A stretch of 64,000 bases of DNA, taken from contig JANWVF010000036.1 of NCBI GenBank assembly GCA_025056965.1, positions 1 to 64,000 of the forward strand, in the 5' to 3' direction. The translations under genes and the position numbers were made by a program. Under the pieces are notes generated by a model. That model searched no databases and had not been told where the DNA came from. It saw only the letters and a list, made by a program, of their open reading frames with translations. Shown piece after piece: positions 1,797 through 3,771 of this stretch (the stretch's first letter is position 1; every line of letters begins with the position of its first letter). This DNA comes from Thermoflexales bacterium. Lineage in GTDB: Bacteria > Chloroflexota > Anaerolineae > J036 > Brachytrichaceae.

Positions 1797-2465
1797 CTAA
1801 TCTATGCGGTAGCCTACGCCGCGCACCGTTTGTAGCCGCTCGGGGCGAGACGGGTCTTTCTCGATCTTTTCGCGCAGCCAACGCACGTGCACATCTACGG
1901 TGCGCACGTCGCCGTCGAAGTCATAGCCCCACACCTGGGTGATGAGGAACTCGCGCGAGAGCACGGCGCCCTTGTTGCGCATGAGCGTGGCGAGCAACTC
2001 GAATTCCTTATGGCTGAGCTTGATCTCTTTGTCACCCAGAAAGACTCTCCGCGAGACCGGATCGAGCTGCACGTCGCCGGCGCGCAGCACGGTGTCCATG
2101 CGCTTGGGCGCGCGCCGCAACGCAGCACGAATGCGCGCAGTCAGCTCAGGCAAGCTGAAGGGCTTCACCACGTAGTCGTCGGCGCCGTTGTCCAAGCCGA
2201 TGACGCGGTCTATCTCGCCGGCGCGCGCCGTTAGCAGGATGATGGCCATATCCGACTCGCGCCGCAGGATGCGACAAAGCGATAGACCATCCAGGCCGGG
2301 CAGCATTACATCCAAAACACAGATGTCGGGTTGTTCGCGTCGCGCAATCTCCAAGCCCTCATCTCCGCTGGTAGCGGTGATGACCGTATAGCCTTCACTC
2401 TCCAGATGCTTAGCGAGCAAATCGAGCAGGATCGTTTCATCCTCGACTATCAGAACCTTTGGCAT
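1797..2465 (-). CDS. OmpR/PhoB-family response regulator
   Basis: Receiver (VLIVEDE, LDVMLPGLDG, VKPFS) plus winged helix (VDVHVRWLREKIEKDP...TVRGVGYRID). Confidence 0.95.
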   Translation of the reverse strand: MPKVLIVEDETILLDLLAKHLESEGYTVITATSGDEGLEIARREQPDICVLDVMLPGLDGLSLCRILRRESDMAIILLTARAGEIDRVIGLDNGADDYVVKPFSLPELTARIRAALRRAPKRMDTVLRAGDVQLDPVSRRVFLGDKEIKLSHKEFELLATLMRNKGAVLSREFLITQVWGYDFDGDVRTVDVHVRWLREKIEKDPSRPERLQTVRGVGYRID

Positions 2466-2529: not shown

Positions 2530-3213
2530 TCACGGGGTGCGGGGCGGCTTGTAATCCCCCAGCTCCGCGGTCGCGGCAAAGATCACTCGTTCGCAGAGGT
2601 TAGTCGCTCGATCGGCGATGCGTTCCAGGCTGTGCGCAACCCAGAGCAGATAAACTGCCTGCGCGATGGTCTTTGAATCTTGCATCATGAAGGTCAACAA
2701 CTCGCGCAGGATTTGTACGTAGAGGTCATCTACTTCTTGGTCGCGCGCTGCTACGCGCTTTGCCGCCTCTGCGTCCATCTCGATGAATGCATCCAGCGCC
2801 TCGTGGATCATTCCGCAGGCGATCTCCTGCATGCGCGGGACGTCAATGAGGGGCTTGATCAGCGGCTCATCCCCAATACGGATCGCGATCGAAGCGATGC
2901 TGCTCGCGTGATCCCCAATGCGCTCGAGCTCACCCGCCATGTGAATAGCAGCGAGGATGTAGCGCAGGTCCTTAGCCGCCGGCTGCTGAGTCGCAATCGT
3001 GCGCACACACTCAGACTCAACGCGGTAGCGCAAGGCATTGATTTGTTGGTCGGACTCGATGATTTGATGGGCAAGCGAGACGTTGCGCTCCTTTAGCGCA
3101 CGGACGGCTCTGGCAACTTGTTCTCCGACTAGGCTGCCCATGCGAAGAACGTCATTGCGAATTTCGTCTATGTTGTGATCCAGCAGAGTGCGGACTGAGG
3201 GAGAACTGGCCAT
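2530..3213 (-). CDS. phoU: Phosphate signalling complex protein PhoU
   Basis: Two PhoU repeats (e.g. LERIGDHASSIA, LERIADRATNLCERVIF). Confidence 0.94.
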   Translation of the reverse strand: MASSPSVRTLLDHNIDEIRNDVLRMGSLVGEQVARAVRALKERNVSLAHQIIESDQQINALRYRVESECVRTIATQQPAAKDLRYILAAIHMAGELERIGDHASSIASIAIRIGDEPLIKPLIDVPRMQEIACGMIHEALDAFIEMDAEAAKRVAARDQEVDDLYVQILRELLTFMMQDSKTIAQAVYLLWVAHSLERIADRATNLCERVIFAATAELGDYKPPRTP

Positions 3214-3239
3214 TTCTGAGCGTTGATATAAGTGCTTAC

Positions 3240-3268
3240 ATTTAAGCTGAGTTTAAGATATTGATAAG
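3240..3268 (-). promoter_or_regulatory. Candidate Pho-box array upstream of phoU
   Basis: Reverse strand CTTATCA-ATAT-CTTAAAC-TCAG-CTTAAAT: three 7-mers with 4-bp spacers (11-bp period), ending 8 bp before TTATAT at 3231..3226. Confidence 0.5.
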
Positions 3269-3298
3269 AATGGATGAAAACTGAGGAGTAAAAGTTGA

Positions 3299-3341
3299 CT
3301 TAACTTTCCGTTCATACACACTTCACACATCGGCGTATATT
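3299..3341 (+). promoter_or_regulatory. Candidate Pho-box array plus -10 for divergent small ORF
   Basis: CTTAACT-TTCC-GTTCATA-CACA-CTTCACA (11-bp period), 8 bp before TATATT (3336-3341). Confidence 0.5.
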
Positions 3342-3363: not shown

Positions 3364-3654
3364 GTGGGTATTCCACCGCGTACGCCTAATAAAACAGGAG
3401 GCCTGAAAGCCAAAGATATTATGAACAGCCAGCTACTAGACGAAACAATTGCCTACATCAGAAGAGAGCTAACTAACATTCATCATGACTTGGCTTGGGC
3501 AGATGGTATACAAGCCGAACTGTTCCGCCTTCGACAAGTTCGCTTACTGGCTGAACTCGATCGTCTGGAAGCGATTCGCCGGACGACAGCGACACCAGTC
3601 GCAATGCGCGCTTCCACTTCTACGAATCAATCGGCCGCCGGCACGGCTGGATAA
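3364..3654 (+). CDS. Hypothetical small protein (possible Pho-regulon member)
   Basis: GTG start 10 nt after AGGAG; alternative ATG at 3421. No recognised family. Confidence 0.5.
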   Translation: MGIPPRTPNKTGGLKAKDIMNSQLLDETIAYIRRELTNIHHDLAWADGIQAELFRLRQVRLLAELDRLEAIRRTTATPVAMRASTSTNQSAAGTAG

Positions 3655-3699: not shown

Positions 3700-3771
3700 T
3701 GCCCCTACGCAGATTCGAACTGCGATCTACGGCTCCGGAGGCCGGCGCTCTATCCATTGAGCTATAGGGGC
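3700..3771 (-). tRNA. tRNA-Arg (anticodon CCG)
   Basis: Reverse complement GCCCCTA TA GCTC..GAGC G CCGGC CTCCGGA GCCGT..CGCAG TTCGAAT CTGCG TAGGGGC A; 7-bp acceptor, T arm with TTCGAAT, no encoded CCA. Confidence 0.93.

Follow-up and report, generated by a model that had tools for sequence, protein, structure and literature searches.

What drives transcription outwards from the gap between phoU and the small gene that diverges from it? The DNA analysed here, 64,000 nucleotides in all (the window), comes from a Thermoflexales bacterium of the phylum Chloroflexota, the nearest named relatives of which are Candidatus Roseilinea and Thermoflexales metagenome-assembled genomes (MAGs). An earlier note, made from the letters alone, had pointed to two Pho-box-like arrays lying back to back between the two genes, a region of 207 bp. 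We consider it about 90% probable, from sequence comparison, that these are two back-to-back promoters of the PhoB class that flank phoU and are driven by a phosphate-responsive regulator. The features of the locus, in window coordinates, are as follows.

1797–2465, minus strand: response regulator of the OmpR/PhoB class, adjoining phoU (PF00072 and PF00486)
2530–3213, minus strand: phoU, 227 amino acids (Pfam PF01895, E = 2.9e-50; TIGR02135, 216 bits against a cut-off of 130)
3225–3230, minus strand: putative phoU −10 hexamer, TATATC, 9 nt past the last unit
3240–3279, minus strand: phoU-side Pho-box array of four 7+4 units (pattern, SphR profile and footprint over nine genus genomes)
3299–3327, plus strand: divergent Pho-box array of three units (sequence; core positions invariant in eight genus genomes)
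3336–3341, plus strand: putative divergent −10 hexamer, TATATT, 8 nt past the last unit (sequence)
3421–3654, plus strand: small conserved gene, 77 amino acids, unnamed (homologues, codon-position bias and a structure model)

Two arrays of 11-bp repeats

On the phoU side, the minus strand reads TTTCATC-catt-CTTATCA-atat-CTTAAAC-tcag-CTTAAAT from position 3279 down to 3240. The last three units (CTTATCA, 3262–3268; CTTAAAC, 3251–3257; CTTAAAT, 3240–3246) are present as the earlier note wrote them, followed by 8 nt and TTATAT at 3226–3231; it had overlooked the fourth in-phase unit, TTTCATC, at 3273–3279. The plus-strand array is likewise as described, with units CTTAACT-ttcc-GTTCATA-caca-CTTCACA (3299–3305, 3310–3316 and 3321–3327), then 8 nt and TATATT. 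Four and three units thus form tandem direct repeats of 11 bp, as in Pho boxes of the PhoB/PhoP/SphR type. Each array takes the place of a −35 element, with its −10 hexamer 9 nt (phoU) or 8 nt (divergent) further on, where about 8–10 bp is expected of such boxes. The core is YTTMAY, and the CTGTCAT core of the Escherichia coli type of pho box is absent. A sigma-70 scan of the intergenic region did not find a promoter of the TTGACA type.

The spacing to the two −10 hexamers had been described as an identical 8 bp, which holds for the divergent side only. TTATAT is one base off the −10 register conserved on the phoU side; a TATA-type hexamer follows the array after 9 nt in all eight congeners, and TATATC is therefore the better −10 here. 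The two spacings are similar, not identical, and the outcome depends on the hexamer chosen. From this −10 to the ATG of phoU there are only 11 nt, in the window as in nearly all congeners, so the phoU mRNA is probably nearly leaderless, judged from the −10-to-ATG position only.

A degenerate three-unit pattern matched the window only at these sites (three overlapping matches, with 0.03 expected from shuffling); this pattern was drawn from the arrays themselves and was therefore not relied upon. We used instead an independent profile of three boxes at an 11-bp period, for which 25 of the cyanobacterial SphR sites published in Table 1 of PMC1906773 supplied the units. By this profile the phoU-side array ranks first in the window, at 26.1 bits (local test, P = 0.0007), and the signal falls at spacings other than 11 bp. 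That the arrays are chance repeats in an intergenic region that is AT-rich relative to the window is hardly credible: maxima from 60 shuffled windows averaged 11.0 bits, and although one reached 20.7 bits, the largest, the phoU-side array scores above all 60; that the arrays are kept across nine genomes and turn up again at pst genes argues further against chance. The divergent array is the next distinct location in the window, but a weak one, with 12.8 bits against the shuffle mean maximum and a local P of about 0.11, which is not significant by itself. The case for this array rests on conservation.

Conservation in relatives and recurrence at pst genes

An absence of conserved repeats upstream of phoU in relatives had been named beforehand as grounds for rejecting the Pho-box reading; instead, the phoU-side array is kept in register in all eight congeners. 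Its last unit ends 26 nt before the ATG in eight of the nine genus genomes and 25 nt before it in the ninth. Across these nine genomes the mean majority frequency is 0.96 at the TT.A core positions, compared with 0.59 in the linkers; on the divergent side, across eight genus genomes, the TT and A positions are invariant (1.00) and the linkers average 0.65. Beyond the genus, the phoU-side array occurs in four genomes from two further genera of the family, three from one genus and one, with two units, from the other. Averaged over 12 relatives, no spacing does better than 11 bp.

The motif also stands at other phosphate genes of the same genome. In a pattern scan of all 3.1 Mb, the best places were the pstB–pstS gap of contig C32, a site upstream of a glycosyltransferase gene on contig C89 and the phoU locus of the window. 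The C32 operon runs pstB, array, pstS, pstC, pstA, pstB, phoU, and the SphR profile detects further high-scoring arrays 5′ of the first pstB. Of 30 regions upstream of pstS drawn from the whole phylum, 11 score above 18 bits with the SphR profile at 11-bp spacing, compared with none or one of the 30 at each of the spacings 8, 9, 10, 12, 13 and 14; the genomes behind some of these regions are related, which limits their independence. No other line of evidence for SphR-like boxes at the pst genes of Chloroflexota reaches as widely as this survey. The scan for the repeat before pst genes, which the earlier note had proposed as a check, thus gives matches 5′ of pstS, both here and in the wider phylum. 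Together with the conservation and the adjacent regulator, the pstS recurrence supports that note's assignment of the 11-bp repeats to the PhoB/PhoP type.

Several other loci deserve mention. Besides a second phoU, the C32 locus (L063, 1343–7399) carries pstB twice, and the copy that precedes pstS has its own array. Six of the nine genus genomes have a three-unit array approximately 120–260 bp upstream of a family-2 glycosyltransferase gene, the distance depending on the start codon (in this genome at C89:43694–43721). A −10 hexamer was not seen at the usual distance from these arrays; the glycosyltransferase is possibly a lipid or envelope gene under Pho control. In three genus genomes, a three-unit array lies around 43 bp upstream of a gene for the solute-binding protein of an ABC transporter. 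An array-like stretch near a third phoU (contig C125; L065, 5857–5908) sits between superoxide dismutase-like and ferredoxin-like genes and was not counted, as it points away from the downstream gene.

The regulator beside phoU and the small divergent gene

The earlier note had placed a PhoB-type regulator directly downstream of phoU, and a regulator of the OmpR/PhoB class holds that position in all 21 loci of the family, with 68–97% identity for those outside the window. It combines receiver and winged-helix domains, the domain make-up of a PhoB orthologue, and its adjacency to phoU supplies the linkage to phosphate genes expected of one; its closest solved relative is RegX3 (2oqr, E = 1.5e-57). 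Among 25 listed NCBIfam models of specific regulators, PhoB included, it reached the cut-off of none. The PhoB equivalog (TIGR02154) gave 232.9 bits, below its cut-off of 296.2, and we therefore file the predicted regulator as PhoB-class (PhoB/RegX3), not as PhoB proper. No kinase gene adjoins the phoU–regulator pair, and a search for PhoR returned 13 histidine kinase matches, none above the PhoR cut-off. These results, like the missed PhoB cut-off, weigh against the promoter reading favoured here.

A period of 11 bp is common among operators of the OmpR/PhoB family, and the adjacent regulator scores about equally with the models of YycF (239), MtrA (238) and PhoB (233), all below cut-off. Both points could suit operators of another regulator with 11-bp repeats, WalR/YycF-, MtrA- or KdpE-like, that does not respond to phosphate. 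We regard this as quite improbable, given that the same arrays lie 5′ of pstS and pstB here and 5′ of pstS across the phylum, and that a profile made from known phosphate sites of SphR recognises them. The regulator encoded at 1797–2465 is the likely binder of the arrays.

For the small gene, the start assumed previously (GTG, 3364) had to be moved. Homologues, which are 57–71% identical to the window protein, open with M(N/T)RQLLDETIAY or something very near it. The 57 nt before ATG 3421, which a start at GTG 3364 would translate, are unconserved, and several relatives have stop codons in frame there; we therefore place the start at ATG 3421. Most differences between homologues are at the third position of codons (in one example 8, 6 and 30 at positions 1, 2 and 3). 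Of 298 genomes of the class, 15 have the protein family, and all 15 belong to one family; it has no significant match in Pfam or NCBIfam. Its structure is predicted to be a two-helix hairpin (residues 2–26 and 29–57; pLDDT 82). Fold comparison gave generic helical hairpins only, none with an E value below 0.66, and a function cannot be read from so generic a modelled fold. Just past the gene, at 3700–3771 on the minus strand, lies a tRNA-Arg (CCG), the only Rfam match.

From its sequence context, the small gene appears to be under the control of the divergent Pho-box promoter. In the competing account, which we consider unlikely, the phoU-side array alone works as a promoter, the divergent array being a decayed copy or an upstream modulator of phoU, and the small gene is promoted otherwise. 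The weak profile score and local P value of the divergent array fit such an account, as do the leader of approximately 73 nt that the divergent promoter would give the small gene and a −10 that varies among relatives (TAACCT- or TATGTT-type hexamers, about 9 nt from the last unit). Against it stand the TT and A positions, which stay invariant while the linkers vary, and four genomes in which the small gene lies away from phoU but still has a two-unit array match upstream of it (P = 0.006–0.044 each, individually modest values). In a fifth genome with an unlinked small gene, no clear array is seen upstream.

A probable phosphate-starvation switch and its known counterparts

As judged from its letters, the motif is of the SphR/PhoP-like type (YTTMAY), nearer to the cyanobacterial SphR box than to that of E. 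coli. The SphR box, CTTAACCT, consists of at least three repeats of 8+3 bp (PMC1906773). Both it and the arrays described here have an 11-bp period, a TTAA core and at least three tandem units, and both lie 5′ of pst genes. The present arrays differ in belonging to another phylum, in the richness of the divergent array in TTCA units and in their placement upstream of a stand-alone phoU–regulator pair. With the pho box of E. coli PhoB (CTGTCAT, 7+4; PMC4415409) they share 7+4 direct repeats that replace the −35 and leave roughly 10 bp to the −10, whereas their core is YTTMAY and they have three or four units instead of two. The PHO box of Streptomyces PhoP is also built of 11-nt units (GTTCACC; PMC4415409), which the divergent units GTTCATA and CTTCACA resemble, and RegX3, the closest solved relative of the regulator here, belongs to the same comparison; by contrast, the phoU-side units are TTAA-type and no senX3-like kinase is adjacent. 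We found no description of a Pho box from Chloroflexota in the open-access literature searched.

The DNA itself shows the arrays with their spacing and conservation, their return upstream of pst genes and the order of the genes; the proposed course of events takes the identity of the bound regulator, its phosphorylation, the dependence on phosphate and the direction of regulation from the PhoB family. Once phosphate runs low, the regulator encoded directly downstream of phoU (or a paralogue that shares its specificity) would be phosphorylated and would bind head to tail on the 11-bp YTTMAY repeats, standing in for a −35 element and recruiting RNA polymerase at the −10 hexamers 8–9 bp further on. 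Both transcripts would rise: that of phoU and the regulator, closing a feedback loop, and that of the 77-amino-acid helical-hairpin protein. As a tentative and rather doubtful suggestion, this small protein, confined to one family and with a Pho-type array even where its gene has left phoU, could have a part in phosphate signalling peculiar to the lineage; it might, for instance, bind PhoU, the regulator or its kinase and tune the shut-off of the response.

The arrays belong to a known kind of Pho box, and what they probably form is an ordinary, well-preserved phosphate-starvation switch; the unfamiliar part is the small protein restricted to this family. A consensus of YTTMAY at an 11-bp period, in three or four units with 8–9 bp to the −10, would permit the Pho regulon to be predicted from sequence in Roseilinea-like bacteria and part of the Chloroflexota, and would bring an unnamed family of small proteins into the phosphate regulon.
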